A DNA stretch of 21,485 nt from a virus. The notes beneath the pieces were generated by a model. That model worked only from the letters and a program-made list of their open reading frames with translations. It did no database searches and was not told the DNA's origin. The stretch is taken from the IMG/VR virus record IMGVR_UViG_3300042987_001471, positions 1-21,485 of that record. One strand, written 5' to 3'. The position numbers and the translations under genes were made by a program. Of this stretch, positions 1 through 21,485 are shown one piece after another. Numbering within the stretch: position 1 is the first letter of the stretch; the number at the start of each line of letters is the position of its first letter.

Positions 1-164
1 CGCCACGTATCGGCAGACCAGTCGCGCATCACGGCGCCGCAGATCACGTCGCCCAGCATGAGCCAGTGGTCGCGGCCATAGTTGCGCGTCTTCCAGTGCG
101 TCAGGGACGCGGGATCGGCCGTCGGGTCAATGCGCAGTTCAGCGGGTGGGTTGTCCAGCGGCAC
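1..164 (-). CDS. Partial unknown phage early-left protein
   Basis: This minus-strand gene starts at a GTG (complement of 162-164) and runs off the left edge after 54 codons. The start is chosen because a strong Shine-Dalgarno sequence, GAGGAGG, lies five bases upstream on the minus strand (about 170-176), and because a promoter with a repressor operator lies directly upstream at 196-224. The visible part begins MPLDNPPAELRIDP and is rich in Trp and Asp; I see no signal peptide, membrane segment or domain I recognise. By position it is the first gene of the leftward operon under the phage repressor, the place where temperate phages keep recombination, excision or superinfection genes. No function is assigned. 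Confidence 0.6.
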   Translation of the reverse strand, partial: MPLDNPPAELRIDPTADPASLTHWKTRNYGRDHWLMLGDVICGAVMRDWSADTW

Positions 165-195
165 AGTGGCCTCCTCGCGGTTGCGATGGGAGGGA

Positions 196-224
196 CGTTA
201 AGCCGAACTGAACATCCGACGCAA
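196..224 (-). promoter_or_regulatory. Leftward early promoter (PL-like)
   Basis: Read on the minus strand, a -35 box TTGCGT (complement of 219-224) and a -10 box TTAACG (complement of 196-201) are separated by exactly 17 bases. The predicted start point, near 189, gives a leader of about 25 bases before the GTG at 164, with the strong ribosome site inside it. The spacer and -10 are covered by an operator copy at 197-213. The same -10 hexamer sits at the same place in the operator at the rightward promoter. The boxes match the sigma-70 consensus only partly, so the call rests mainly on this shared arrangement. Confidence 0.55.
197..213 (-). promoter_or_regulatory. Repressor/Cro operator OL
   Basis: The 17-bp sequence GTTAAGCCGAACTGAAC is an imperfect dyad (GTTMAGY, three bases, RCTKAAC). 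Its reverse complement matches the sequence at 664-680 in all but two central bases, and the two are placed identically on their promoters. Binding by the repressor at 257-604 and by the Cro-like protein is inferred. Confidence 0.7.
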
Positions 225-231
225 GCGAAAA

Positions 232-259
232 TGATCAGGTAAACTGAATTTTCTGATCA
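232..259 (-). terminator. Possible terminator of the repressor transcript
   Basis: TGATCAG (232-238) and CTGATCA (253-259) form a perfect 7-bp inverted repeat with a 14-base loop. Read on the minus strand, the right arm overlaps the repressor stop codon and the stem is followed by ATTTTCG, a short T tract. The stem is short and AT-rich, so termination would be weak. The same stretch also holds a degraded operator (233-249), so it could instead be a regulatory site. Confidence 0.4.
233..249 (-). promoter_or_regulatory. Possible weak third operator
   Basis: GATCAGGTAAACTGAAT agrees with GTTMAGYNNNRCTKAAC at 11 of 14 specified positions, with a near-perfect right half-site ACTGAA. It lies upstream of the leftward promoter and at the end of the repressor gene. 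It may be a low-affinity site for cooperative binding, or chance. Confidence 0.3.
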
Positions 260-604
260 GGCCGCTTGGGGTGAGTCGTCGTCGTCCGACGCGGGCGCGT
301 CAGTCGCCGCTAATATGAGGCGCAGCACCATCCCGCGCTGGCTCGCCGGCACCCGATGCCAATGCCGGATCAGCGCGCGCAATTCTGCATCATGATCAAT
401 CGGTTGAGCGTGAACGCCTAGAAGGGCGGCGGGATCACTGCGGGTTTGCGCCGCAATCGCCAGCAAATGCCCGTGCTTGGGCCGCGTGTCGCCCGCCTCC
501 CACTGCGCGACTGCGCTGGGGCTCACATTTAGAGCGCGGGCAAGCTGTCTCTGCGTCAACCCGGCGGCGGTTCGCACCGCTCTAATTCTGTCGTGCAATT
601 CCAT
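257..604 (-). CDS. Short HTH phage repressor (CI/C2 position)
   Basis: A 115-residue protein with an N-terminal HTH_3/XRE domain (about residues 5-58); the helix-turn-helix runs through LTQRQLARALNVSPSAVAQW, a classic lambda-repressor-family pattern. The C-terminus is charged and ends in an acidic DDDD run. An upstream in-frame ATG at 703 was rejected because it would place the coding region through the operator at 664-680 and across the Cro start; ATG at 602-604 gives the normal family start MELHDRIRAVR. It is divergent from the Cro-like gene and flanked by operators, so it is most likely the lysogeny repressor. It lacks the C-terminal S24 peptidase domain of lambda CI, so RecA-stimulated self-cleavage is not expected. 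No strong Shine-Dalgarno is visible before 604. Confidence 0.8.
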   Translation of the reverse strand: MELHDRIRAVRTAAGLTQRQLARALNVSPSAVAQWEAGDTRPKHGHLLAIAAQTRSDPAALLGVHAQPIDHDAELRALIRHWHRVPASQRGMVLRLILAATDAPASDDDDSPQAA

Positions 605-5835: not shown

Positions 5836-6767
5836 ACGAGTTGCCTGCGCCCATGAGCGCACCAGAGTGCGATTTGCGTGATTTCCAGTTCATGCCGCTG
5901 CTGATCACGCGATTGAAGCGGTCAAAAGCGTGGCTGAAATGCAAGCGCCGGCCGGAACTGGCGTTTTACATGCTCAACCTGTGGACTGCCTCATGGCACG
6001 AAACCCCGGCCGGCAGCCTTGAGGACGACGACGACGTGCTGGCCGACCTGGCCATGTGCGACCCGGCGAAATGGGCCAAGATCAAGTCCGACGCACTGCA
6101 CGGGTGGGTCAAGTGCTCGGATGGCCGGCTCTATCACAGGGTTATCGCAGAGCAAGCCACAGAAGCGTGGCTGCACCGGACAGGCTATCGCGAGCGTCTA
6201 TCAAAGGCCCGTGAGGCGCGCGAAGCCAAGCGCAATGGGCGCGCCATAGGGACTGTCATAGGTTCTATGATAGAGACTATCACAGAGCCTATCACAGACG
6301 GTGTGACAGCCCATATCACATCGACTGTCACAGAGCAGAGGATAGAACAAAGCACAGTTCTTAAGGGACAGGGACAGGGACAGGGACAAGTACAAGAACC
6401 CCCTGTAGTCCCCCAGCCGGCCGAGCGGCCATGGGCGCACCGGGATTGGCTGGCACCGTGGCACCCCCATGCCGAGCGATGGGAGGTTGACCCGGCGCGG
6501 CCGACCATGGGATTAAGGCCGGTGGTGGGTGGTTGGTTCGCAGACGTGATCTGGGAAAAGGCGAAGGAGGCCGGCGATTTGCCCGAAAATCGTTACGACA
6601 CCGTTGAAGGCTTGCGTCCCATGGCTGACTGGCTGAAATCGGGGCGCGACCCAGACGAAATCTACGCGGGAATTCAAAAGGTTGCGCGGCGATCGGGGTA
6701 TTCGCCGCCGGACTCGCTGCGGTATTTCGACCGGGCGGTTCAGGACGCGAAGAGGGCCGTGGCATGA
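5832..6767 (+). CDS. DUF1376 protein, candidate replication organiser
   Basis: A 311-residue protein. Residues 15-110 carry the DUF1376 pattern (PELAFYMLNLWTASWHETPAGSL, then CSDGRLYHRVIAEQ), common in phage genes next to dnaB. Residues 115-137 are basic. Residues 140-175 are four-residue repeats of the form xx(V/I)T, followed by four GQ pairs (179-186). The C-terminal region (about 200-311) is probably a separate domain with several Trp residues. The ATG overlaps the dnaB stop as ATGA, with GAGG seven bases upstream. The repeat-coding stretch (6251-6389) is much AT-richer than its surroundings and holds iteron-like DNA motifs. The layout of N-terminal domain, iterons in the middle and C-terminal domain recalls lambda O, but this is inference. 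Confidence 0.75.
   Translation: MNELPAPMSAPECDLRDFQFMPLLITRLKRSKAWLKCKRRPELAFYMLNLWTASWHETPAGSLEDDDDVLADLAMCDPAKWAKIKSDALHGWVKCSDGRLYHRVIAEQATEAWLHRTGYRERLSKAREAREAKRNGRAIGTVIGSMIETITEPITDGVTAHITSTVTEQRIEQSTVLKGQGQGQGQVQEPPVVPQPAERPWAHRDWLAPWHPHAERWEVDPARPTMGLRPVVGGWFADVIWEKAKEAGDLPENRYDTVEGLRPMADWLKSGRDPDEIYAGIQKVARRSGYSPPDSLRYFDRAVQDAKRAVA
6251..6346 (+). repeat. Iteron-like cluster, candidate replication origin
   Basis: The 8-mer CTRTCAYA occurs exactly at 6253-6260, 6277-6284, 6289-6296 and 6325-6332, and inverted at 6266-6273 and 6302-6309; 6313-6320 differs by one base. All fall in a 12-bp register. Another exact copy is at 6131-6138. By hand count 6252-6365 is about 45% GC, far below the flanking coding sequence. 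Lambda-type phages carry iterons and an AT-rich zone inside the initiator gene next to dnaB-related functions. Origin function is inferred. Confidence 0.55.
6366..6389 (+). repeat. GGACAG hexamer tandem repeat
   Basis: Three exact GGACAG units are followed by GGACAA, encoding Gly-Gln four times. It directly follows the iteron-like cluster. It may be a flexible linker, part of the same origin structure, or a slippage-prone tract. Confidence 0.9.
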
Positions 6768-6961
6768 AGCGGGTCAAGCTTGAGGATTTTCGATTTTCCA
6801 AGCAAATTTCTACGACTTCGCCGCATTGGCCTGCGGTGATGGAGTGGAAAAAGCGCGGCTTGCTGACCGTCACCCCGCAGACAGCGACGCTTGCCGCCGT
6901 GGAACTTTCCAGTGATGGGCTTGAGGTTGCGAACCGGGAGCGGACGCAGTGGCGGGGGTGA
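6764..6961 (+). CDS. Small protein of unknown function
   Basis: A 65-residue, basic protein beginning MKRVKLEDFRFSKQIS, with no recognised domain, signal peptide or membrane segment. Its ATG overlaps the stop of the DUF1376 gene (ATGA) and has GAGGG about seven bases upstream, so it is almost certainly translated as the last gene of the early operon. An 86-base GC-rich gap with nothing I can name follows it. Confidence 0.6.
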   Translation: MKRVKLEDFRFSKQISTTSPHWPAVMEWKKRGLLTVTPQTATLAAVELSSDGLEVANRERTQWRG

Positions 6962-7047
6962 GCGGGGGTGTGTCGCTTGGTGGGAGTGCCGCCGCCGAGC
7001 CGTGAAACGCCGCGCGCGCGGGTCGGTTTGATAGACGGAGGCGGGGC

Positions 7048-7263
7048 ATGAGCGCTGGGAAAACTACAACGCCGCATCTGGCGGAAATGGACGCCATCAC
7101 CGAGTGCAAGCGGCAGATTGAGCCGCTATCCCCGGCCGCGCGTCAGCGGGTCATCTCGTGGCTGCAAGCGTGGGCGCATGATGAACAGGCGGAAAGTTCG
7201 AGGCTTGGCGGGTATGCCATCGTCCCGTCTGGCTATCACGGGGCAAACACGATCCCTGTCTAG
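7048..7263 (+). CDS. Small phage protein of unknown function
   Basis: A 71-residue protein. The central helix IEPLSPAARQRVISWLQAWA (about residues 28-47) resembles a motif seen in many short phage early proteins of the form L-P-ARQRVL-WL. The start is well supported by GGAGG eight bases before the ATG at 7048. The C-terminus is Gly/Tyr-rich. No enzyme or membrane feature is visible. It opens the cluster of small genes between the replication and packaging modules. Confidence 0.65.
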   Translation: MSAGKTTTPHLAEMDAITECKRQIEPLSPAARQRVISWLQAWAHDEQAESSRLGGYAIVPSGYHGANTIPV

Positions 7264-7334
7264 CCCGCACTTCAATCGGCTCTGACGCCAGGCGCCGCGC
7301 CCGAAAAATAGCCGGCCTCGCGCATTTTCTCCGT

Positions 7335-9287: not shown

Positions 9288-10647
9288 CGCGATCGCGGCG
9301 GACTGGTGCCCCGAACTTTTCTTCGGTGGCGCGCGCGGTGGCGGCAAGTCGGATTTCCTTCTAGGCGATTTCCTGCAAGACGTGCCGCGCTACGGGCCGG
9401 CATGGCGTGGCATCCTGTTCCGCCGGACGTATGAGCCGGAGCTGAAGGAAATTCTACTCCGGTCGCAGGAGCTATACCCGCCGTCCGGTGCGACCTGGCA
9501 CGAGAAGGACAAGACGTGGAAATGGCCGAACGGCGCGTTCCTCCGGCTGCAATACCTAGAGCGGGAACAGGACGCATCGCGCTACCAGGGGCAGCAATAC
9601 ACGTGGATCGGTTGGGACGAGTTGACGCAGTGGCCTAGCGACGCGGCATACCGGATGATGTTCGCCTGCCTGCGATCGGCTGCGGGTGTGGCGACGAAGC
9701 GGGTGCGAGGCGCCGGCAACCCGGGCGGTCCGGGGCACCAGTGGGTTAAGGCTCGGTTTATTGATCCCGCGCCGCGTGGGTTTGAACTGATCAACGATGG
9801 CCCATGGGAGCGGCTGTTCATTCCGAGCCGCGTGCAGGACAACGCTATCCTGCTCGCATCAGATCCGGGCTATGCGGCACGGCTGCGCGGCGCGGGATCG
9901 GCGGAGTTGGTGCGAGCGTGGCTTGAGGGTGACTGGTCCGTCGTGTCCGGGGCCTACTTCCCGGAGTGGTCGCCGGACAAGCACGTGATCGAGCCGTTTG
10001 AGATTCCGCCGGATTGGCCCCGGTTCCGATCGTTTGACTGGGGATCGGCGCGGCCGTTCAGCGTCGGGTGGTTTGCCGTGTCGGACGGGTCTGACCATCG
10101 TTTCCCACGCGGCGCGCTGGTCCGGTATCGCGAATGGTATGGCATGAAACCCGGATCGCCTAACGTCGGGCTTAAACTGACGGCCGAGGCTGTCGCGCAG
10201 GGCATACGGGACCGCGAGACGGAGCGGGTGCAACTCGGCGTCGCTGATCCAGCCATTTTCGCCGAGGATGGCGGACCGTCGATTGCGCAGCGTATGGCCG
10301 GACACGGCGTGTTGTGGCGCAGGGCGGATAACAAGCGGGTCCCGGGCGCCGGAGCGATGGGCGGCTGGGACGCTGTCAGGTCGCGGCTTGTTGGCGAGGA
10401 TGGCAAGCCGATGTTATTCGTGTTTACAACCTGCCGCGACCTTGTTAGGACGCTCCCTGCACTACAGCACGACGCGCTGCGTCCCGAGGACGTGGATACG
10501 GACGGTGAAGACCATGCGGCGGACGAGTTGAGATACGCCTGCATGTCGAGACCGTGGGTTCCGGCGGCGCGCAAGGCGGCTGTGGTGCAGATCAGCGACT
10601 ACGGTCGCAACAGGCAAAGGGCAGCCCCGGATTGGCGGACGGCGTAG
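9256..10647 (+). CDS. terL: Terminase large subunit (ATPase-nuclease)
   Basis: A 463-residue packaging motor of the Terminase_6/P22-like group. It starts directly with the ATPase: Walker A GGARGGGKS (24-32), Walker B YTWIGWDE (115-122, with D121 and catalytic E122), and motif III GAGNPGG (152-158). The RNase-H-like nuclease follows, with the acidic triad D261 (FDWGS), D331 (VADPAIF) and D423 (AADELRY). It pumps DNA into the prohead and cuts the concatemer. GTG 9256 is used because nothing shorter leaves Walker A in its usual place near residue 25; the gene overlaps the small subunit by 32 bases. All key residues are present. Confidence 0.95.
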   Translation: MWSPQPGPQADAIAADWCPELFFGGARGGGKSDFLLGDFLQDVPRYGPAWRGILFRRTYEPELKEILLRSQELYPPSGATWHEKDKTWKWPNGAFLRLQYLEREQDASRYQGQQYTWIGWDELTQWPSDAAYRMMFACLRSAAGVATKRVRGAGNPGGPGHQWVKARFIDPAPRGFELINDGPWERLFIPSRVQDNAILLASDPGYAARLRGAGSAELVRAWLEGDWSVVSGAYFPEWSPDKHVIEPFEIPPDWPRFRSFDWGSARPFSVGWFAVSDGSDHRFPRGALVRYREWYGMKPGSPNVGLKLTAEAVAQGIRDRETERVQLGVADPAIFAEDGGPSIAQRMAGHGVLWRRADNKRVPGAGAMGGWDAVRSRLVGEDGKPMLFVFTTCRDLVRTLPALQHDALRPEDVDTDGEDHAADELRYACMSRPWVPAARKAAVVQISDYGRNRQRAAPDWRTA

Positions 10648-10658
10648 CGACTGATGAC

Positions 10659-12611
10659 ATGCTCCCAACGCTTCGCGAGTGGTTTCGCGAGGCAGAGGAC
10701 ACCAGCGCGGACGCCAGACAGGAAAGCGAGCGGGCCAGGGACTACCTTGATGGGCGTCAGCTAACCAGCGAACAGGTCGCGACGCTGGCAGAGCGCGGGC
10801 AGCCGGCGGTGGTCGATAACCGCATTCGCCCCAAGGTGAGCTACATCCTCGGCGTGGAAAAGCGGACCCGGACTGATCCCCGGGCATATCCGCGGACGCC
10901 AGATCACGAGCAGGACGCGAACGGCGCGACGGACGCGCTGCGGTATGCCTGCGACGCGGCGCATTTCGAGGAGACCAGCCCGCGCGTGTTGGAGGATATG
11001 CTGGTCGAGGGCACGGGCGGCGTGGATGTCGTCTACAACGAAGCCACGGGCGATATCGACGTCATACAATACCCGTGGGATCGGCTGTTTTGGGACCCGA
11101 GGTCGCGCAATCTCGATTTCTCCGACGCCAAGTATCTCGGCGGCGTGGCGTGGCAGGACGAAGACGAAATTCTGGCCAAGTGGCCCGGGTCAGAGGATGC
11201 GATTGCCGCCGCGCACGTGCTGGAGGCGTCCGACGCGACGACGTATGGCGATCGTCCTAGCGCCACGTGGGGCGATAAGAACCGCAAGCGGGTGCGGGTC
11301 ATCCAATTGCATTGGGTGGACGGTGAGGGTTGGTGGTCCGCGACGTTTACGGGAGGCGGGTTCCTGACGCCGCCGGCACCGTCGCCGTATGTGGACGAGA
11401 ACGGCGCTCCGTCATGCTCGATGGTGCTGCAATCGGCGTATATTGACCGCGAGAACACCCGCTACGGGATCGTGCGGGACATGTTTGATCTGCAGGATGA
11501 GGTCAACAAGCGCCGCTCCAAGGCGTTGCACCTCATGACCGTGCGCACGGTGATTGCCGAACAGGGCGCGGTGCAGGACGTAGACGAAGCCCGGGCGCAG
11601 GTGGCCAAGCCTGACGGTTTCGTAGAAGTCGCGCCGGGGATGCGGTTCGAGATCGGCGACAACGTGAACCTGGCGCAAGGGCACGTCCTGCTGCTGAACG
11701 AGGCGAAGAGCGCGCTAGAGGGGCAGGGACCTAACGCGTTCCTGATGGGCAAGCAGTCGCAGGGCGCGTCCGGTCGGGCGATCATGGCCAGCCAACAGGG
11801 TGGCGTGACTGAGATCGAGGGCACCGTTCTAGAGCGGTTTAAGACCTGGAAACGCCGCGTCTACACGGCAATCTGGCTGCGTATCCGGCAGTTTTGGACC
11901 GCCGAGAAGTGGGTGCGGATCACCGACGACGAGCGCAACGCCAAGTTTGTCGGGCTTAACCAGCCGCTAACGCTGTCGGATGCGTTGGAGGATATGCCGC
12001 CTGAGCAGCAACAGGCGATGGTGGCGCAGCTTGGCGTCATGCCGGGCGATCCGCGTCTGTCGCAGCCGGTGGTAAACGAGGATGGTTCGCCGGTTTTGCG
12101 GAACGACGTGTCGCGCGTGATGGTGGACGTTGTCATTGACGAAGCGCCGGACGTGGTGACGCTACAGCAAGAGCAGTTTGCGCTACTGGCCGATCTGGCC
12201 AAGATCCCCGGCCTGATTCCGCCCGACGCGCTCATTGAGGCGTCGGCGCTGAGAAACAAGGAGACGTTGCTCAAGCGCATGCGCCCGCCGACAGGGCCGA
12301 ATGGTGAGCCGGTTCCGCCCCCGCCGCCGCCCGAGGTGGTGAAGATGCAAGCGGAATTGGAAATGAAGCAGCAGGCAGCGCAGATGGACGCACAGATGGA
12401 AGCGCAGCGGTTGCAGGCGCAGATGGCGGCGGACCAGGCGCGTCTACAGGCAGAGATACAGGCCATGCAGGCTCGTGCGGCGGCTGAGATTGAGATCGCA
12501 CGCCAGCGGGCCGAGGCAGACATACAGATCGCCAGAGCGAAAGCCTTGGCGGATGCAGAGCTACGGGCGCAGCAGGCTATGGCGGCGTCTGAGACGGCTA
12601 CGGTTCAGTAG
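10659..12611 (+). CDS. P22-type portal protein
   Basis: A 650-residue portal, close to the 725 residues of P22 gp1. Residues 53-66 (DNRIRPKVSYILGV) and the WDP/FWDPRSR segment near 145 match P22-type portals. After the Pro-rich run near residue 550 comes a roughly 80-residue coiled coil of Gln/Ala/Met/Glu, corresponding to the long C-terminal barrel helix of P22-like portals. It forms the dodecameric DNA gate at one vertex and docks the terminase and the gp4-like adaptor. ATG 10659 is preferred over the in-frame GTG at 10554: the longer form would add 35 Gly-rich residues that lie within the terL coding frame. No strong ribosome site is visible; TTG 10632 with AAAGGG upstream is an alternative. 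Confidence 0.85.
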   Translation: MLPTLREWFREAEDTSADARQESERARDYLDGRQLTSEQVATLAERGQPAVVDNRIRPKVSYILGVEKRTRTDPRAYPRTPDHEQDANGATDALRYACDAAHFEETSPRVLEDMLVEGTGGVDVVYNEATGDIDVIQYPWDRLFWDPRSRNLDFSDAKYLGGVAWQDEDEILAKWPGSEDAIAAAHVLEASDATTYGDRPSATWGDKNRKRVRVIQLHWVDGEGWWSATFTGGGFLTPPAPSPYVDENGAPSCSMVLQSAYIDRENTRYGIVRDMFDLQDEVNKRRSKALHLMTVRTVIAEQGAVQDVDEARAQVAKPDGFVEVAPGMRFEIGDNVNLAQGHVLLLNEAKSALEGQGPNAFLMGKQSQGASGRAIMASQQGGVTEIEGTVLERFKTWKRRVYTAIWLRIRQFWTAEKWVRITDDERNAKFVGLNQPLTLSDALEDMPPEQQQAMVAQLGVMPGDPRLSQPVVNEDGSPVLRNDVSRVMVDVVIDEAPDVVTLQQEQFALLADLAKIPGLIPPDALIEASALRNKETLLKRMRPPTGPNGEPVPPPPPPEVVKMQAELEMKQQAAQMDAQMEAQRLQAQMAADQARLQAEIQAMQARAAAEIEIARQRAEADIQIARAKALADAELRAQQAMAASETATVQ

Positions 12612-13463: not shown

Positions 13464-14555
13464 ATGACGGTCACTACGGTTGCATCTGGCAATCGCGTTC
13501 AGCAGTGGAGCGACAGCTTCTATGCTGAGTTCATCAGGGAAAATCGCTTTGCCCAATATATGGGCGTCAGCGAAAACAGCCTGATCCACGTCAAGGAAGA
13601 CTTGGCCAAGAGCGCCGGCGACAGCCTGACGTGGACCACCGTGCGCAAGCTGGCGCAGTCTGCCACGCGCGGTGCAACGACGCTCTCCGGCAACGAAGAG
13701 GCGCTAAACAACCGTTCGCTGCGCGTCTACGTCGAGTTGGTCCGGCACGGTGTCAAGATCGACACCAAGGTCGAGCAGATCAAGACGCAACTCGATCTGT
13801 TGGAGACGGCTCGGTATGCCCTCAAGGAGTGGCATATGGAGACGCTCAAGATGGACGTGATCAACTACGGGCTGATGTCCATCGACGGGACCAAGTTTTC
13901 GGACGCGACGACGTCGCAAAAGAATACATGGGTCACGAACAACAGCGATCGCGTCCTGTTCGGCAAGCTCAACTCCAACTACTCGACGACGTTTGCCACG
14001 GCGCTGGGCAACATCGACGCGACCGACGACAAGCTGACGCCGGCCGCCGTCTCGCTGATGAAGCGCATTGCCCGCACGGCCAGCCCCGCCATCCGCCCCA
14101 TTCGGATTCGGAACGACGAGGAATGGTTCGTGCTGTTCGCGCCGTCGTATTCGTTCCGCGACCTGGCGACGCATTCGGACATGCTGAGCGCGAACCGCGA
14201 TGCGTGGGACCGTGGCCGGGAAAACCCGATCTTCACGGGCGGCGATCTGATCTGGGACGGCGTCATCATCAAGGAAATCCCCGAAATTCCCGTGCAAGCT
14301 GACTTGGGGGCTTCTTCCTGCGACGTCGCGCCGTCGTTCCTGTGCGGTCAGCAGGCCGTCGCCATGGCGCAGGTTCAGCGTGCCAAGGCGATTGAGGATA
14401 CGCCGCAGGACTACGGCCGGTTCCGCATGCCGGGCGTTGAGATGATTCGCGGGATTACCAAGGCGCGGTTTGGCACGTCAACGTCGGCGGACACGACCAC
14501 TCCCAAGGATCACGGCATGGTGACCGGCTGGTTCGCCGCGCAGCCTGACGCCTGA
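13464..14555 (+). CDS. Major capsid protein, N4-gp56/DUF4043 type
   Basis: A 363-residue protein of the size and order expected for the coat. It contains the family pattern SLTWTTVRKLAQSATRGATTLSG near the N-terminus, ELVRHGVKIDTKVEQIKT (about 91-108) and a long helical spine (LDLLETARYALKEWHMETLK), plus the C-terminal GVEMIRGITKARFG. This points to the N4-gp56/DUF4043 coat family, HK97-fold proteins found in podoviruses, rather than classical P22 gp5, although the surrounding order is P22-like. Codon use is markedly optimised (many GTC, ATC, AAG), consistent with very high expression. The ATG is six bases from the scaffold stop, with only a weak ribosome site. Confidence 0.8.
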   Translation: MTVTTVASGNRVQQWSDSFYAEFIRENRFAQYMGVSENSLIHVKEDLAKSAGDSLTWTTVRKLAQSATRGATTLSGNEEALNNRSLRVYVELVRHGVKIDTKVEQIKTQLDLLETARYALKEWHMETLKMDVINYGLMSIDGTKFSDATTSQKNTWVTNNSDRVLFGKLNSNYSTTFATALGNIDATDDKLTPAAVSLMKRIARTASPAIRPIRIRNDEEWFVLFAPSYSFRDLATHSDMLSANRDAWDRGRENPIFTGGDLIWDGVIIKEIPEIPVQADLGASSCDVAPSFLCGQQAVAMAQVQRAKAIEDTPQDYGRFRMPGVEMIRGITKARFGTSTSADTTTPKDHGMVTGWFAAQPDA

Positions 14556-14579: not shown

Positions 14580-15047
14580 ATGGCTTTCTCCTACTCGAAG
14601 ACGATCGCGGCGACTGATCCGCTGTTTTGCCCCAACGCGGGCGAGGTGGCGTCGTTCACGCAGATCATCACTGTCGGCACGGCTGACCTGACGCAGAACA
14701 ACACGTTCGACATCTGCTATATCCCGCCCAACTGCAAGGTAGTTGACGGGTATCTGGCAGCCACGGACATGGACAGCGCTGCGTCGCCGGCTCTCACGAT
14801 CATCGTGGGGGATAGCGGCGATACCGATCGGTTTATCAATGCGGGCACGATCGGCCAGGCCGCGATGCGCATGAGTTTCGGCAATAACGCCACGTCGGCC
14901 GCGACGCTGATTACTCACCAGAGCACCGTCTATACGTCTGCCACCAAGATCTATGGGACGTTCACGAACGCCCCTGGAACGGCGGTGGCGGGCACGATCG
15001 CGGCGACGGTGTTCTACACGACGACTGAGCCGCCGACCACCATCTGA
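14580..15047 (+). CDS. Probable capsid decoration or head accessory protein
   Basis: A 155-residue, Thr/Ala-rich protein, beta-strand-like throughout, with many small polar residues and no Lys-rich or membrane segment. GAGGGA lies eight bases upstream of the ATG. It directly follows the coat gene, is of similar codon optimisation, and has the composition of a trimeric head-decoration protein (phrases such as TDRFINAGTIGQAAMRMSF). A minor head protein or head-completion protein is an alternative. Its TGA overlaps the next ATG by one base. Confidence 0.65.
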   Translation: MAFSYSKTIAATDPLFCPNAGEVASFTQIITVGTADLTQNNTFDICYIPPNCKVVDGYLAATDMDSAASPALTIIVGDSGDTDRFINAGTIGQAAMRMSFGNNATSAATLITHQSTVYTSATKIYGTFTNAPGTAVAGTIAATVFYTTTEPPTTI

Positions 15048-15358
15048 TGCCGCTGTTCAGGTGGATAGGCGGGCCTGAGTGTGGGGACGCTACCGAGACG
15101 GTAGCGTTCCGCCTCACGTTCCTGCTGGGCGACGCGGTGGAGGTATCGGACCCGATCGCGGTTGCCAAGTTGCGCAATAACCGGTTTTTCGAGGAAGTCG
15201 AGGATGGCGACGGTGGCGGCACTCGGGGCGCGGGCGTTGCGGAAGCTGGGGCTGGCCCCCGTCGCCGTGGCAGACCGCCCAAGCAGCGGCTCGACGGTGA
15301 CGGTGGCGCTGATCGCGAACCGGGCGTTGCGGATCCTGGGGGTGAACCCGATTGCTGA
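15047..15358 (+). CDS. Small head-region protein with AT-hook-like motif
   Basis: A 103-residue ORF whose ATG overlaps the previous stop (TGATG). Residues 1-52 (FRLTFLLGDAVEVSDPIAVAKL, then FEEVED) read as a real small phage protein of a type often found next to coat genes. Residues 55-103 overlap the adaptor gene in another frame. They include RRRGRPPKQR (about 72-81), an AT-hook-like GRP motif often seen at the end of such small proteins, so at least the first part of the overlap may be truly dual-coding. The last 20 residues are probably shadow-like sequence. Function unknown. Confidence 0.55.
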   Translation: MPLFRWIGGPECGDATETVAFRLTFLLGDAVEVSDPIAVAKLRNNRFFEEVEDGDGGGTRGAGVAEAGAGPRRRGRPPKQRLDGDGGADREPGVADPGGEPDC

Positions 15359-16475
15359 ATCCGACGCCGCGAGCAATTCCGGCACGGTTTCGGTGACGAT
15401 CATTGCAGCCCGGGCGCTTCGGCGTCTGGGCTTCAATCCGCATGTGGAAAGCGCGGTTCCGGCTGAGAGCGGGACCACCGATACCGACGATATTGCGGAG
15501 CGTGCCTTGCGCATGCTGGGCATCGTGAGCGCGACGGAAACGCCGGCGACAGAGGATCAGACGCTGGCAGCCGAAAAGGCGACGGCGGTGCATCAGCATC
15601 TTTTGTCCGTCAATTTCGTGCCGTGGGCATACAACGAAATACCGGCGTCGTGCGCCGAGCATTACGTCATCATGACCGCGCACCTGTTGGCGCCGTCGTT
15701 TGGCATCACGCCGAACCTGCCGGCGAGCTTTGAGGGGGCGCGCGATGGCGTTCGGGCGGTTGCGTGGTCTGGCGCGTATGGGCAGACGGCGGCAGAGGAT
15801 CGCGTCACGGCGGTCCATGAGATGCTTGCAGCGCTGAATTTTGTCTCGTGGGCGTCGTCTGCCATCCCGACATGGGCGGCTGATCACTATGCCGCGATGG
15901 CGTCCTATCTGCTGGCACCCGGCAGTGGCGCGCAGGTTGATCCCGCCGTGTATGACAATGCGCTGAACACGATCCGCACCATTTCCCTGACGGGCAGCGC
16001 GGGGCAGACGCGCGCTGAAACTGCGGTGAACGCGGCGCATCAGACGCTCAACTCCATGGGCTTCGTCACATGGGCCACCTCGGCCATTCCAGAGGGGGCG
16101 GCGGAGCATTACGCCATCATGGCAGCGGCGCAGCTGGCGCCCGTCTACGGCAAGCCTAGGGACGATACGGCCTATGCTAGCGCCATCGCCATGGTGCGGC
16201 GGTTTGCCTACTCCGGCGCGACGGGGCAGAGCATCGCAGAGGCGAAGGTTCGGGCGGCGTATGGATCGCTTGCGGCGCGTGGGCTGTCGCGGTGGACGCT
16301 CGCCAGCATCCCGGAGGAAGCCGAGGAGCCGATTGTCATGATGGCGGCCGCGCTGTTGGCGCCGGACATTGGCGAGCCGGCCCCGCCGGGCATCTATCAG
16401 GCGGGCGAGGCGGAAATCCGGCGCATCACAGCGCTGGGGACTAGCCGGACGGGCGTCGTAGCGGAGTATTACTGA
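15204..16475 (+). CDS. gp4-like tail adaptor with fourfold internal repeats
   Basis: A 423-residue protein; P22 gp4 is 166. ATG 15204 has GAGGAAG six bases upstream; the in-frame 15162 start lacks one. Residues 1-119 are four 30-residue repeats with ALRKLG, ALRILG, ALRRLG and ALRMLG at 11, 41, 71 and 101. Residues 120-423 are four 74-75-residue repeats, each with a Trp (141, 216, 290, 364), an IP turn (147, 221, 295, 369) and an (L/Q)LAP box (161, 236, 310, 385), the first three ending GQT or GQS. The last short repeat plus the first long one matches the plan of gp4, which ties the tail to the portal and has the same ALRKLG phrase near its start. The gene lies between head genes and a gp10-like gene, as gp4 does in P22. 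The repeats imply nested duplication. Confidence 0.75.
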   Translation: MATVAALGARALRKLGLAPVAVADRPSSGSTVTVALIANRALRILGVNPIAESDAASNSGTVSVTIIAARALRRLGFNPHVESAVPAESGTTDTDDIAERALRMLGIVSATETPATEDQTLAAEKATAVHQHLLSVNFVPWAYNEIPASCAEHYVIMTAHLLAPSFGITPNLPASFEGARDGVRAVAWSGAYGQTAAEDRVTAVHEMLAALNFVSWASSAIPTWAADHYAAMASYLLAPGSGAQVDPAVYDNALNTIRTISLTGSAGQTRAETAVNAAHQTLNSMGFVTWATSAIPEGAAEHYAIMAAAQLAPVYGKPRDDTAYASAIAMVRRFAYSGATGQSIAEAKVRAAYGSLAARGLSRWTLASIPEEAEEPIVMMAAALLAPDIGEPAPPGIYQAGEAEIRRITALGTSRTGVVAEYY

Positions 16476-19400
16476 TGAGCGCATACGCCGTCCCGTTTGC
16501 CATCCCCAAGCAGCCGCGCAGCCTGTTGCAGCCGACGCGCCGGGACTTCGCCACGACGGCGGGCGATGACTTCACGATTGAGATCACGGTCTATCCGACC
16601 GACACCGACACCTCCGCGTATAACGTCACGGGCGCGACATCTGAATTTGTCGTGTATGACGATAGCAGCCGCGAGGTTTTGACTGTCGTCGGGGCGGTGT
16701 CGGACGGTGCGGCCGGGCGTATTGACATTGACGTTGACGGCGACGACACAACCGAGCTTGCCGGGCGGTATTCCTTCCGTGTGACCGTCGAGTTCGCGGA
16801 TGGCACGTCCACGGTCACACACGGCGCGGTCCATATCGCGTCGCGCGCTGGGACGGAAATGATTTCCGGGTCCGGGTCGCTGCCCAGTTCCACCGTCCTA
16901 GATCTGACTGAGGTTACGATCCAGACGGCCACCATCACGACGGCCGAGATCGGCGCGCTGACGGTGACGGGCGGCTTCGTCGGAGAGGGGACGGGATCGT
17001 TCGGCGGCAACTTGTCGGTTACGGGCAACATCACGGCCACGGGCGATATCTCGGCCGGCGATGATATGGCGGTGACGGGCGATGCCACGATTGGCGGAAC
17101 CCTGACCGTCACAGGCAATGTAACTACAGGCGACGTGACGGCGGGCGAGGTAGACCTTACTGCCGTCCGTATCTCGACGACGCACGACGCGGAAGGCGCG
17201 ACGGACCCGGACACGTCGCCTTTTTCGATGCAAATCCAGTTGCCGCGCGTCACGGGCGTAACCGCCCCGACTGGCAACCGCGAGATCATGCCGCTCCGCA
17301 TTCAGTCGGATAACATCCTGACCGAGACATCGGCGGGCGGGTATGGCACGGTCCGGCATTGGTCCTTGTTGTCGCGCCTTGGGACCGCCGGCAAGGCGGC
17401 TGCGGATAGCTGGGCTGGCGCGCGTGTGGCGTTCACGATCGGGCTGCAAGAGAAGTCGCAGCCGGTGGAAGCGGTGGCGCCGCGCAATCCGTCCCGATCG
17501 CAGCCGGCGACAAATGCCTTGTGGCTGTCGCAGTTCCACTCGGTGAACCGAGGCGGGACGGGGCTTGCGCGGGCGTTCTGTCGCGGCTCGACCTTCAATC
17601 TGTATTCCATCATGGTCCTGCAGGGTGCGACGTTCCTGAACGTCACGCGCCAGATGGAACTTGGCTTCCAGATGGAAAGCACGGGGTCGACGCGGGCCTA
17701 TCGTGTGATTGCCGCGCCGATCATCAAGGTTGATGGCCCGATCCCGCCTGGCCCGTTCACCGTCGTCGGGGCGACGCGCAACCGTCTTGCCACGCCGGGC
17801 TATGTGTCCGGCTTCCTTGCCGGCGGTAGGCAGGGCGTTGGCGGGATGGACCCGTTCAACGGGATCGCCTTTGAGCATTCGGCTTCCTCGGCTGACGTGC
17901 GTCCGCAGGCTCTGGCGGGGCTATCCATCCGGGAGGTGAAATATCTCCGCAACGCCATTGAATGGGCAGGCGGTGACATCGGAGGCGGGACGCTCGGCGC
18001 CGCTGGCACGGGCCGCCTGCGCCTTGGGACGGCGTTCTTTGAGACGACATCAAGCGGCCTTTCTCTGGACGTGTGTGGATACGAAGGATCGGCGGCCGGC
18101 TCGATTATATCGTTGTCGTCTGGCGATACCGTCATCTATCCCGAGCTGGGCACGTTCCTCGAAGATGAACACGAGGGCAATGGCGTGTATCGCGCTCGCG
18201 CGCGGTATCCGACCAAGATCGGCAACGTCGAGGTTGTGCTTCCTCCGGTCAGCAAGACCAATCCAGGATCCGCTAAGACGCAGATCGAGATCAAGCCGCA
18301 CACACAGACAACGCCGGTCTACTCGTTCAACGTCACCAGCACCGCGACGACAACGACGCACCCCGCGCCGATCCTGAACACGACTGATGACTTTTGCGTC
18401 GGCATGTATCTTGAATACATGTCGGGTGTTTGCGCCGGCGAACGCCAGATTATTACCGACTACAATGCGACGACGGGCGTCATTACGACGGCTGCGTTCT
18501 CGGCGGTGCCGACGACGACAAACGACGCCATCACGAATGGCAACTTCACGACAAACCCGACTACAGGCGCGGAAGGCGTCATCACGGCGGGATGGTCGTG
18601 GTTTGCGGATGGCACCGCGCCACAACCATCGTGGGTGTCGCATCAGGTCTATATCGCGGGCGATGGGACGAACGCGGCTGGCATAGACCAGCAAGTCACT
18701 GTCGTCGCGCTCACGGACTACATTCTCGGTTTTACCTTCAAGGGTTCGGAATCCTTCACCGTCAAGTTGGGCACGGCGCAGGGTGACAGCGACGTGCATG
18801 AGACGGTCATTGATCCCGACCTGACGGACGAAGACGACGTCACGACGCCGCAAGTCGCGCAGGTTCGCTTTTCGGTCCCGTCCGGCACGAGCGTATGGCT
18901 TCGCATTCAGAACACCGGCGCGGGCGAAGCGATCATCGACCGTGTGACGTGTCAGGCTGTCACGGACGCGGACAGCATCTATGGCGTGCGGGCCAAGATC
19001 GTGACGCCGACGCTGGAACTGGCGCACACGTGGACGCAGAAGAACACGCTCGCGTTGCAAGGCTCTGGCGGGCCGATGACGGTCGGCGGGACGGCAGATA
19101 TCGCGGGCAACTTCTCGGTCGCCACGTCCAAGTTCACCGTCGCTGCGTCCACGGGCAACACGGCGGTTGCTGGCACATTGGGCGTGACGGGTGCCACCAC
19201 TGTTGCCGCTCTGACCACCTCCGGGGACGTTATCGTCGGGTCGTCCAAGGTCACGGTCGCAGCCGCGTCCGGCAACACTGCCATTGCGGGCACGCTAGCG
19301 GTTACAGGGGCCACAACGGCGGCGGCTGTGACGACCAGCGGGGATGTGACGGTCGGATCGTCCAAGGTCACCATTGCGGCCGCTACGGGCAATACGGCCA

Positions 19401-20638
19401 TTGCCGGCACGCTGGCCGTCACGGGCGCGACGACGGCGGCAGCGGTGACGGCATCGGGCACGGTCACGGGCGCAACCTTTGTCCCGTCCAGCGCATCGGC
19501 GCCGACGAACGGGCTGTATCTACCGGCGGCAAACACGCTTGGGCTTTCCGTCAACTCGGCGGCCGAGGTGCAGCTCACCAGTTCCGCTCTGTCTCCCGCC
19601 GCGAATGACGGCAACGCGCTGGGCACAAGCTCGCTTTCTTGGTCCGATCTGTTCCTTGCGTCGGGCGGCGTGGTGAACTGGAATAACGGGACTGTCACCC
19701 TGACGGAAACGTCTGGCGTGCTGGCCCTGACTGCCACGTCCCTAGAGATTGCCGGTGGACTTGGCGTTAGCAGCAGCTTCGCCATCAACACGAACAAGTT
19801 TTCCGTCGTTGGATCGTCGGGCAATACCTCCATTGCTGGCACGCTATCGGTGACGGGCGCCACGTCCGTAACCAGCACGATCACGGCCAATTCGTCCGGC
19901 ACGACGCTCGCGTCTCTGCAAGGGACGATGATCTATGCGGGCGCGGCCGATGGCAGTCCGACGCGCGTCACAATCGACGCGGCTGCCAACGATCCATACG
20001 TGCAGTTCCGCCGCTACGACGGGACCTATGCGTCACCAAGCGCGGTGGCCTCGGCCGCTGGCTTGGGCAAGATTGGATGGCGTGGCTACACGGGCAGCGC
20101 TATGTCGGGCGAGCGTGGATACATCGAGGCTGTCGCGGCGGAGGCGTGGTCTACATCCGCGAACGGCGTTCATATTGACTTCGGCACGACCACAACGGGA
20201 TCAGTCAGCCTCGCCAGCCGTCGCATGCGGCTCACGGCGGCGGGGCAACTTCTGATCGGCACAACGACGGCGTCGGCAGAACTGACCGTCACCGGCAATG
20301 TGTGGTGGTCCGGCTACTCGCTCGCCAGCGTCGGCAATGCCCTGACCGCGACAGGCACAACCCGCACCGATGCCTTGCAGTTGGCCAAGCAATACAACCG
20401 CCTGACAACCGTGGCATCGGGCACGGGCGTAATCCTGCCGACCGGCGTTGTGGGTATGGCGATCGTGCTATTCAACGCGGGCGCGAACGTGTGCAAGGTC
20501 TACGCAAACGGCTCTGAGACGATTGACGGCACGGCGGGATCAACAGGCGTCAACCTGACAAACGGCAACCGTTGTGTGTATATGTTCATGGCGTCCAACA
20601 CGTGGATTTCCGCGCAGATGGGCGCCGTATCGGCATAG
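16475..20638 (+). CDS. Large modular tail fibre/appendage protein
   Basis: A 1387-residue protein whose ATG overlaps the previous stop (TGATG). Residues about 20-125 resemble the BppU-type N-terminal Ig-like domain (DFTIEITVYPTDTD, then YSFRVTVEFADGTS), which anchors to the virion. Residues 160-225 are repeated VTGN/TGD strands, likely a beta-helical shaft. About 685-828 is a jelly-roll-like, probably carbohydrate-binding module (NGNFTTNPT, FTFKGSESFTVKLG, VWLRIQNTGAGEAIIDRV). From 885 come three 39-residue repeats (SSKVTVAAASGNTAIAGTLA) and a degraded copy near 1105. The C-terminal 90 residues form a small domain ending in a WISAQMGAVSA strand. It probably recognises the host surface. No enzymatic motif is visible. 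It sits between the gp4-like and gp10-like genes. Confidence 0.8.
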   Translation: MSAYAVPFAIPKQPRSLLQPTRRDFATTAGDDFTIEITVYPTDTDTSAYNVTGATSEFVVYDDSSREVLTVVGAVSDGAAGRIDIDVDGDDTTELAGRYSFRVTVEFADGTSTVTHGAVHIASRAGTEMISGSGSLPSSTVLDLTEVTIQTATITTAEIGALTVTGGFVGEGTGSFGGNLSVTGNITATGDISAGDDMAVTGDATIGGTLTVTGNVTTGDVTAGEVDLTAVRISTTHDAEGATDPDTSPFSMQIQLPRVTGVTAPTGNREIMPLRIQSDNILTETSAGGYGTVRHWSLLSRLGTAGKAAADSWAGARVAFTIGLQEKSQPVEAVAPRNPSRSQPATNALWLSQFHSVNRGGTGLARAFCRGSTFNLYSIMVLQGATFLNVTRQMELGFQMESTGSTRAYRVIAAPIIKVDGPIPPGPFTVVGATRNRLATPGYVSGFLAGGRQGVGGMDPFNGIAFEHSASSADVRPQALAGLSIREVKYLRNAIEWAGGDIGGGTLGAAGTGRLRLGTAFFETTSSGLSLDVCGYEGSAAGSIISLSSGDTVIYPELGTFLEDEHEGNGVYRARARYPTKIGNVEVVLPPVSKTNPGSAKTQIEIKPHTQTTPVYSFNVTSTATTTTHPAPILNTTDDFCVGMYLEYMSGVCAGERQIITDYNATTGVITTAAFSAVPTTTNDAITNGNFTTNPTTGAEGVITAGWSWFADGTAPQPSWVSHQVYIAGDGTNAAGIDQQVTVVALTDYILGFTFKGSESFTVKLGTAQGDSDVHETVIDPDLTDEDDVTTPQVAQVRFSVPSGTSVWLRIQNTGAGEAIIDRVTCQAVTDADSIYGVRAKIVTPTLELAHTWTQKNTLALQGSGGPMTVGGTADIAGNFSVATSKFTVAASTGNTAVAGTLGVTGATTVAALTTSGDVIVGSSKVTVAAASGNTAIAGTLAVTGATTAAAVTTSGDVTVGSSKVTIAAATGNTAIAGTLAVTGATTAAAVTASGTVTGATFVPSSASAPTNGLYLPAANTLGLSVNSAAEVQLTSSALSPAANDGNALGTSSLSWSDLFLASGGVVNWNNGTVTLTETSGVLALTATSLEIAGGLGVSSSFAINTNKFSVVGSSGNTSIAGTLSVTGATSVTSTITANSSGTTLASLQGTMIYAGAADGSPTRVTIDAAANDPYVQFRRYDGTYASPSAVASAAGLGKIGWRGYTGSAMSGERGYIEAVAAEAWSTSANGVHIDFGTTTTGSVSLASRRMRLTAAGQLLIGTTTASAELTVTGNVWWSGYSLASVGNALTATGTTRTDALQLAKQYNRLTTVASGTGVILPTGVVGMAIVLFNAGANVCKVYANGSETIDGTAGSTGVNLTNGNRCVYMFMASNTWISAQMGAVSA
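19127..19477 (+). repeat. Three 117-bp tandem repeats in the fibre gene
   Basis: Units begin with TCCAAG at 19127, 19244 and 19361, exactly 117 bases (39 codons) apart. Copies two and three are the most alike; the end of the third diverges. A degraded fourth copy lies at about 19790-19868. They encode a repeated beta-shaft element; such tracts can expand or contract by recombination and change fibre length. Confidence 0.9.
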
Positions 20639-20648
20639 GGATTGAAGC

Positions 20649-20951
20649 ATGGCACTGGCTATTCAGATTGAGGCAGACAATACCGGCGTGATGGCCACCT
20701 ATTGGCGCATCCGTGGCGTCACCATCCACACGCCCCCAGATGGCGAGGATACCGTCACGCTGACCGTGGAGGGTTACGCCACCGAGGCGGCGCGGCAATC
20801 CGGCAAGGATCCGCTCATGGCGTCGCAATTCTCGGTGCCGCTGTCGGTGATGGAAAGTCCCGGCAGCAACGCGCTGCGTGACCAACTCAAGGGGATGCTC
20901 TATACGGTCGTCAAGGCGCGGCCGGAATTTGCGGGAGCCTCGGACGTCTGA
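20649..20951 (+). CDS. Small tail-region protein of unknown function
   Basis: A 100-residue protein beginning MALAIQIEADNTGVMATYWRI, followed by TLTVEGYATEAARQSGKDPL and a helical end. The first half looks like a two-sheet beta domain; its pattern of a modified amino-acid string for a changed parameter is common in small phage tail proteins placed after a fibre gene. GGGATTGAAGC provides a possible ribosome site. It overlaps the next gene by one base (TGATG). It may be a fibre chaperone or minor tail component; the sequence does not decide. Confidence 0.65.
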   Translation: MALAIQIEADNTGVMATYWRIRGVTIHTPPDGEDTVTLTVEGYATEAARQSGKDPLMASQFSVPLSVMESPGSNALRDQLKGMLYTVVKARPEFAGASDV

Positions 20952-21485
20952 TGCCTCGTATCCCTTTCGCAGTTCATAGCTACAAGTTGGATGCTCTTGC
21001 CGCTTCCGCGCAGGACATCATCAACTTGTATGCCGAGGAGCTGCCGGAAGGGTCTATCTCGCCTGTTCTCGTGCGGCATGTGCCAGGGTTTGAACTGTTC
21101 GCGACGGGCGGATCGTCCAAGGTCTGGGCGATGTGCGAGTTCCAAGGCGAGATGTATTTCGTCACCGGCTTTTCCACGCTTGTGCTCTACAAGGCCACAA
21201 GCGCGGGCGTGGTGACGAGCATCGGGACGCTGACGGGCGGCGGCTCGCCTGTCTCCATGGCGGCCAGTGCATCGCAGCTTGTGGTGGTCGCGTCGCCCTA
21301 TGCGTGGGTGGTGTCAGGCGGGACAGCTACCAAGATCACGGATGCGGACTTCCCGTCCGTGCAGAACGTCACTTACCTCGGCGGGTATTTCGTCTATACG
21401 AAGACCAGTTCGGATCAATACGTGGTGTCCGACCTGAACGACGCATCGTCCTATTCCGCGCTCATGATTGCCAGTGCTGAGGGGG
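20951..21485 (+). CDS. gp10-like tail hub / DNA stabilisation protein (partial)
   Basis: The first 178 codons of a gene that runs off the right edge. The N-terminus MPRIPFAVHSYKLDALAASAQDIINLYAE followed by LPGF-like VRHVPGFELF resembles P22 gp10 and relatives, the packaged-DNA stabilisation/tail hub protein of about 470 residues, which begins with the phrase PVNMLATPKEILNSSG-type and a beta-propeller-like set of strands. Strand repeats such as VWAMCEFQGEMYFVTG and QLVVVASPYAWVVSGG fit a propeller. The order gp4-like then gp10-like also agrees. In P22 gp10 seals the portal after DNA filling. Only the N-terminal part can be judged. Confidence 0.7.
   Translation, partial: MPRIPFAVHSYKLDALAASAQDIINLYAEELPEGSISPVLVRHVPGFELFATGGSSKVWAMCEFQGEMYFVTGFSTLVLYKATSAGVVTSIGTLTGGGSPVSMAASASQLVVVASPYAWVVSGGTATKITDADFPSVQNVTYLGGYFVYTKTSSDQYVVSDLNDASSYSALMIASAEG

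Follow-up and report, generated by a model that had tools for sequence, protein, structure and literature searches.

Papers on phages T7 and SU10 describe a dodecameric adaptor ring on the portal clip that seals the head once DNA has been packaged and to which the hexameric nozzle attaches. The tail barrel of crAss001 contains gp4-type rings that stack into five dodecameric tiers over about 23 nm and are encoded by four separate genes, and according to the same study only one gp4-type ring has been shown in other podoviruses (PMC10172136). Twelve adaptor chains are likewise present in the structure entries of the Pseudanabaena cyanophages Pam1 and Pan3 (7eep and 9vyg). Here we describe a viral locus in which a single gene at the adaptor position encodes several gp4-type units in one chain.

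The stretch of DNA that we analysed (the window; 21,485 nucleotides, IMG/VR record IMGVR_UViG_3300042987_001471) contains an open reading frame whose 423-residue product is made up of two blocks of repeats (Table 1). Residues 1-122 form the A block of four units of ~30 residues, with an ALRxLG motif at exact 30-residue spacing (residues 11, 41, 71 and 101), and residues 123-423 form the B block of four units of ~74 residues, each with a Trp (141, 216, 290 and 364), an IP turn (146, 221, 295 and 369) and an LAP box (162, 237, 311 and 385) at spacings of 75, 74 and 74. No insertion beyond the A and B units, and no fibre-dock insertion, is present in the 423 residues. Self-comparison of the protein revealed seven diagonals (offsets 74, 149, 75, 30, 148, 223 and 60) with scores from 84 to 45, all above the best diagonal found in 100 shuffles (44), and both length and repeat layout were maintained in two relatives, L002 (91% identity) and L003 (87% identity). 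The shuffles and this conservation rule out a chance origin of the repeats. Substitutions between the window and either relative fall mostly at third codon positions, with a dN/dS of 0.085-0.087 in both comparisons and low values in each block (0.12 for A, 0.07 for B). Because the repeat layout is kept in L002 and L003 and dN/dS is this low, the product is, as judged by sequence comparison, a translated protein under purifying selection. An antisense open reading frame of 456 aa (15114-16484), open in L002 and broken in L003, is without support as a gene.

Table 1. Coordinates of the adaptor gene, its units and its neighbours in the window.
Feature	Position	Strand	Basis
P22-type portal protein	10554..12611	+	PF16510, E 5e-107
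Major capsid protein, Phage_capsid_3	13464..14555	+	PF13252, phrog_334
Probable cement/decoration protein, at the place of the Pam1/Pam5 cement gene	14580..15047	+	phrog_8455, E 1e-4; synteny
Small conserved protein, 3' 155 bases overlapping A1-A2 in another frame	15047..15358	+	ORF, relatives
Multi-unit tail adaptor gene, A4B4, 423 aa, ATG start	15204..16475	+	repeats, profile, model, selection
A1, residues 1-30, helix and linker, predicted partner B4 (base domain)	15204..15293	+	pairing read from aligned range 1..405
A2, residues 31-60, predicted partner B3	15294..15383	+	aligned range 25..318
A3, residues 61-90, predicted partner B2	15384..15473	+	aligned ranges 61..243/264
A4, residues 91-122, continuous into B1; A4+B1 a contiguous gp4-fold tip domain	15474..15569	+	structural match 89..188
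B1, residues 123-197, three helices	15570..15794	+	profile and model
B2, residues 198-271, three helices	15795..16016	+	profile and model
B3, residues 272-345, three helices	16017..16238	+	profile and model
B4, residues 346-423, with C-terminal tail ending EYY	16239..16472	+	profile and model
Long repetitive fibre-like protein, directly after the adaptor	16475..20638	+	phrog_697, E 3e-10
Nozzle, gp10-like, Phage_stabilise; cut by the window end	20951..21485	+	L003 orthologue

The neighbours of this gene, which according to Pfam and PHROGs also include a terminase, follow the order portal, scaffold, coat, cement, adaptor, fibre and nozzle; this order, shared with Pam1 and Pam5 apart from the place of the nozzle gene further downstream, agrees with the identity of the protein as an adaptor. 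The orthologue of the truncated nozzle gene in the L003 contig scored 29.4 bits versus a Pfam cut-off of 25. The nozzle gene lies after the fibre gene in the window and directly after the adaptor gene in Pam5. The fibre-like protein (1387 aa) carries repeated 'GTLxVTGATTxAAxTTSGDVTVGSSKVT' stretches, and its L003 orthologue (1492 aa) has a different number of repeats. Upstream, the 3' end of the small conserved gene runs over A1 and half of A2 (15204-15358) in the window and in L002, with a similar overlap in L009-L012. In the codons that overlap, synonymous divergence is low (0.28 and 0.46, versus 0.71 and 1.06 overall), so that both frames may be constrained there.

The protein is almost certainly a portal-proximal tail adaptor with the P22 gp4 fold, and very probably holds one gp4-type domain per A-B pair. 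First, an HMM built from the four B repeats of the window alone retrieved the single-copy adaptors that distant phages encode at this position (E 2e-5 to 8e-3), among them Pam5_08, which is annotated as 'adaptor'. Second, an HMM of 17 single-copy adaptors had this protein as its sole match among 204 open reading frames of the window (E 1.3e-56) and recognized four B-type domains in it: the A4+B1 stretch nearly fills the profile, B4 reaches the C-terminus of the profile, and B2, B3 and B4 match with i-E values of 1e-9 to 2e-15, their A partners being read only from alignment ranges. Third, in an AlphaFold model of the adaptor (pLDDT 83.2, pTM 0.56, alignment of 8 rows), A4+B1 (residues 89-188) superimposes on P22 gp4 with Z 10.9 (rmsd 2.6 over 99 residues) and on Sf6 gp7 with Z 10.3; the top 11 structural matches are all P22 gp4, Sf6 gp7 or Pan3 adaptors (Z 8.5-10.9), and the next, unrelated chain follows at Z 4.2. 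An unrelated solenoid fold is ruled out by these matches. Similarly, A2+B1 in the model of a two-unit relative matched the P22 gp4 fold with Z 10.7. The secondary structure of the window model is helical except for two-residue EE pairs, with no beta-sandwich domain. The sequence-only reading had noted the four 30-residue and four 74-75-residue repeats and had proposed a tail adaptor of four gp4-like units, with each long repeat as a possible gp4-equivalent core. The motif positions and the self-comparison against shuffles bear out the repeats, the profiles in both directions, the fold of A4+B1 and the gene order bear out the adaptor, and the single-copy relatives at the same position, together with the two matches to the gp4 fold, bear out one gp4 core per A+B equivalent; the one-chain structure prediction that it had called for gave a match to gp4-fold adaptors and no sign of an unrelated solenoid.

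Other searches were less sensitive. Foldseek with the whole sequence returned E-values of 0.2 or worse because one domain is only a quarter of the model, and P22 gp4 was reached by sequence search alone only at E of about 0.1. Pfam and PHROGs scans of the adaptor yielded no clear match, only sub-threshold entries or entries of unknown function, and the Pfam result has no power as a test of family since Pfam also misses the annotated adaptors of Pam1 and Pam5. The annotated Pam5 adaptor is matched by phrog_29314 (E 1e-9), and phrog_29314 and phrog_12985 weakly match multi-unit adaptors; these two PHROG families, annotated as of unknown function, are probably tail adaptors, judging from such matches.

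Relatives of the window were collected via the coat protein from IMG/VR, GTDB genomes and the cultivated cyanophages Pam1, Pam5 and Pan3, and units were counted by scanning A and B profiles over all fetched loci. Adaptors with n = 1, 2, 3, 4 and 5 units of each kind occur at the same genome position. In Pam1, Pam5, Pan3 and related phages the gene at this position encodes a single-copy adaptor, mostly of 110-190 residues. Complete multi-unit adaptors comprise 91 with n = 2 (about 214 aa), 30 with n = 3 (313-320 aa), four with n = 4 (423-429 aa) and two distinct proteins with n = 5 (L010 and L011; 527-529 aa). Across the series A units are mostly of 30 residues and B units of 73-74, and the W, IP and LAP features are kept in all units. 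The number of A units equals that of B units in all complete multi-unit adaptors (127/127). Tandem repeats usually follow the order ABABAB, and none of the 127 has its units in ABAB order. Candidate exceptions to the equality proved spurious: L267 (one A, three B) has its 5' end cut by the contig, and the 'exceptions' with n = 1 are divergent single-copy adaptors in which the profile missed the lone A helix.

The unit number changes at least 11 times on the tree of capsid proteins and at least 13 times on the tree of the adaptors' terminal units, counts that exchange of adaptor genes between phages may inflate, those on the capsid tree among them. Close relatives can differ in n, as do L153 (three) and L135 (two), and the best-supported branches of these trees alone force several independent changes, all of which keep A equal to B. 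This combination of variable n with equal A and B is the strongest feature of the family and lies beyond the reach of the window sequence alone. L072 encodes a second, distant four-unit adaptor (6001-7287, about 40% identity); in the capsid tree it branches elsewhere, which suggests that n = 4 was reached twice. The nearest single-copy relative of the window clade is L073 (10705-11556), from a Porphyrobacter MAG, where the adaptor and a cement-like stretch upstream of it share an uninterrupted frame, so that a fusion or a frameshift is possible. Open reading frames of 207-229 aa occupy the adaptor position in L074 (2717-3337), L076 (10553-11176), L154 and L052. The one in L076, a Nitrospirota MAG, apparently consists of one gp4 domain that carries an alpha2-alpha3 insert like those of Pam1 and Pan3, which looks like a second way to enlarge an adaptor.

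How the A and B units pair was read from the first and last aligned residues of structural matches in two AlphaFold models that rest on shallow alignments (8 and 30 rows), and from which existing units the additional ones resemble in sequence. Both lines make it likely that pairing is nested, with A(i) packing on B(n+1-i). Minor matches of the window model to short compact folds span 61..243 (A3/B2), 25..318 (A2/B3) and 1..405 (A1/B4), and those of the n = 2 model (pLDDT 84.0, pTM 0.66, alignment of 30 sequences) span 1..~180-200 (A1/B2), while neither model has an aligned range of the kind that pairing of equal numbers would give, for instance 1..~129. In 27 of the 30 adaptors with n = 3, the extra A and the extra B are both of the junction-side type of n = 2 relatives, which would indicate copying of the domain nested innermost. 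A parallel arrangement, A(i):B(i), accounts for only the other three (L096, and L123 with L271; one or two lineages) and for no aligned range of either model, and was set aside. Two further comparisons do not discriminate: L012 (n = 3) versus L010 (n = 5) is compatible with nested and parallel pairing alike, and mean-field DCA (87 sequences with n = 2, Neff 34.5) is too shallow to choose a pairing. The unit counts and the 27 histories support an origin of A-A-A-A-B-B-B-B by repeated nested duplication around one A-B gene, as the sequence-only reading had suggested.

On this basis we propose how the protein may fold and assemble. The one domain of a single-copy adaptor is made up of helix alpha1 (A) together with helices alpha2-alpha4 (B), and entire A-B domains would have been inserted repeatedly in the loop that joins alpha1 to alpha2 in a domain already present. 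The chain of the window adaptor would then run out via A1-A2-A3-A4, turn, and come back via B1-B2-B3-B4, packing A4:B1, A3:B2, A2:B3 and A1:B4 at mirror positions; a lone A or B would be unable to complete a domain, which would keep the two numbers equal. The A1:B4 pair on the outside, which would bring both chain ends together and carries the conserved EYY tail found in similar form (EYF or YY) in most single-copy adaptors, is the putative ancestral portal-binding unit; the inserted domains, one inside the next, would reach outward from there. With twelve chains, as many as the portal has subunits, the adaptor would then build four stacked rings, with n setting the length of the neck; scaled roughly from the 23 nm of the five crAss001 rings, four tiers would make a neck of some 15-20 nm. 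The adaptor would bind the portal after DNA packaging and then take the nozzle. We consider this whole account, a nested string of gp4-type domains in twelve chains whose stacked rings set neck length by n, somewhat more probable than its opposite, and we regard the stacking of rings itself as about evenly balanced. More tentatively still, and a shade below even, one gene may encode n bracket-nested gp4-type domains as n covalently linked dodecameric rings, the neck growing or shrinking as phages gain or lose whole bracket pairs.

The main rival to stacking, which we hold to be unlikely but worth serious consideration, is that only A1:Bn sits in the twelve-fold ring and that the inserts form an outward wreath, docking the neighbouring fibre-like protein or shielding the neck. 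T7- and SU10-type adaptors do have an extra fibre-dock domain; in the window, L003 and L010 the gene after the adaptor encodes a long fibre-like protein; and the adaptors of Pam1 and Pan3 have an insert elsewhere, between alpha2 and alpha3. However, the inserts keep the gp4-type signature, which in known phages belongs to channel-lining rings, with the W, IP and LAP features conserved in every unit and no divergence into a dock.

Quite improbable, in our estimate, is a ring built from fewer chains, in which each chain fills n of the twelve gp4 positions and 12/n chains (three for the window adaptor) suffice. Every unit is gp4-sized, twelve is divisible by 2, 3 and 4, and the geometry of one ring would require no new interfaces. 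Against this, two distinct complete proteins have n = 5 and 12/5 is not a whole number; with nested pairing, the two ends of the chain share a domain and the domains are not equivalent to each other; and the ABAB order, a simpler source of head-to-tail neighbours in a ring, is never seen. The sequence-only reading had offered three chains replacing twelve subunits, or else a larger ring or a longer neck: the five-unit relatives remove the former as a general rule, and of the latter, which stands, the longer neck is favoured. A very improbable reading, that an A-helix array and a B solenoid reached equal counts by chance with no one-to-one pairing, can appeal to two contiguous blocks that could expand separately and to the look of a two-unit tandem duplication in both blocks between L010 and L012, but it conflicts with equality in 127/127 adaptors, even though n changed 11 times or more, and with models in which A helices complete gp4-like domains.

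We favour the nested string of gp4-type domains, and the family as a whole, A(n)B(n) with equal counts throughout for n between 1 and 5, points to recursive insertion of domain in domain. No multi-unit adaptor was found in 50,697 phage records, nor in 385 alphaproteobacterial genomes or in scanned genome contigs, where an empty result says little, and no earlier report of a multi-unit adaptor or of a recursive A(n)B(n) virion protein was found in the literature that we searched, many subscription journals lying outside it. As far as could be checked, the parts are known and the recursive layout with variable n is new. The natural series n = 1, 2, 3, 4 and 5 offers a test of whether one gene can lengthen a podovirus neck step by step, where crAss phages use separate ring genes, and such adaptors provide a clean test of evolution and folding under repeated domain insertion.

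Compared with described systems, the window adaptor resembles P22 gp4 and Sf6 gp7, the dodecamers between portal and nozzle, in the fold of A4+B1, the genome neighbourhood, the P22-type portal and the gp10-like nozzle, but has four domains per chain, probably nested, where they have one. With Pam1, Pam5 and Pan3 it shares a related capsid gene, gene order, core motifs and a YY/YF C-terminus, whereas their adaptors are single copy and those of Pam1 and Pan3 carry the alpha2-alpha3 insert instead of extra domains. T7 gp11 and SU10 gp11 are likewise helix-bundle cores that form a dodecamer between portal and nozzle, but unlike the window adaptor they have a fibre-dock domain and an embracing helix or loop and no domain repetition. 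The R1-R5 tail barrel of crAss001 (PMC10172136) shares extra gp4-type units in a podovirus, their stacking into rings and the resulting longer tail being only proposed for the window; crAss001 spreads its rings over four paralogous genes whose products each have an additional beta-sandwich domain, whereas the window has one gene whose units are fused, probably nested and made of helices only.
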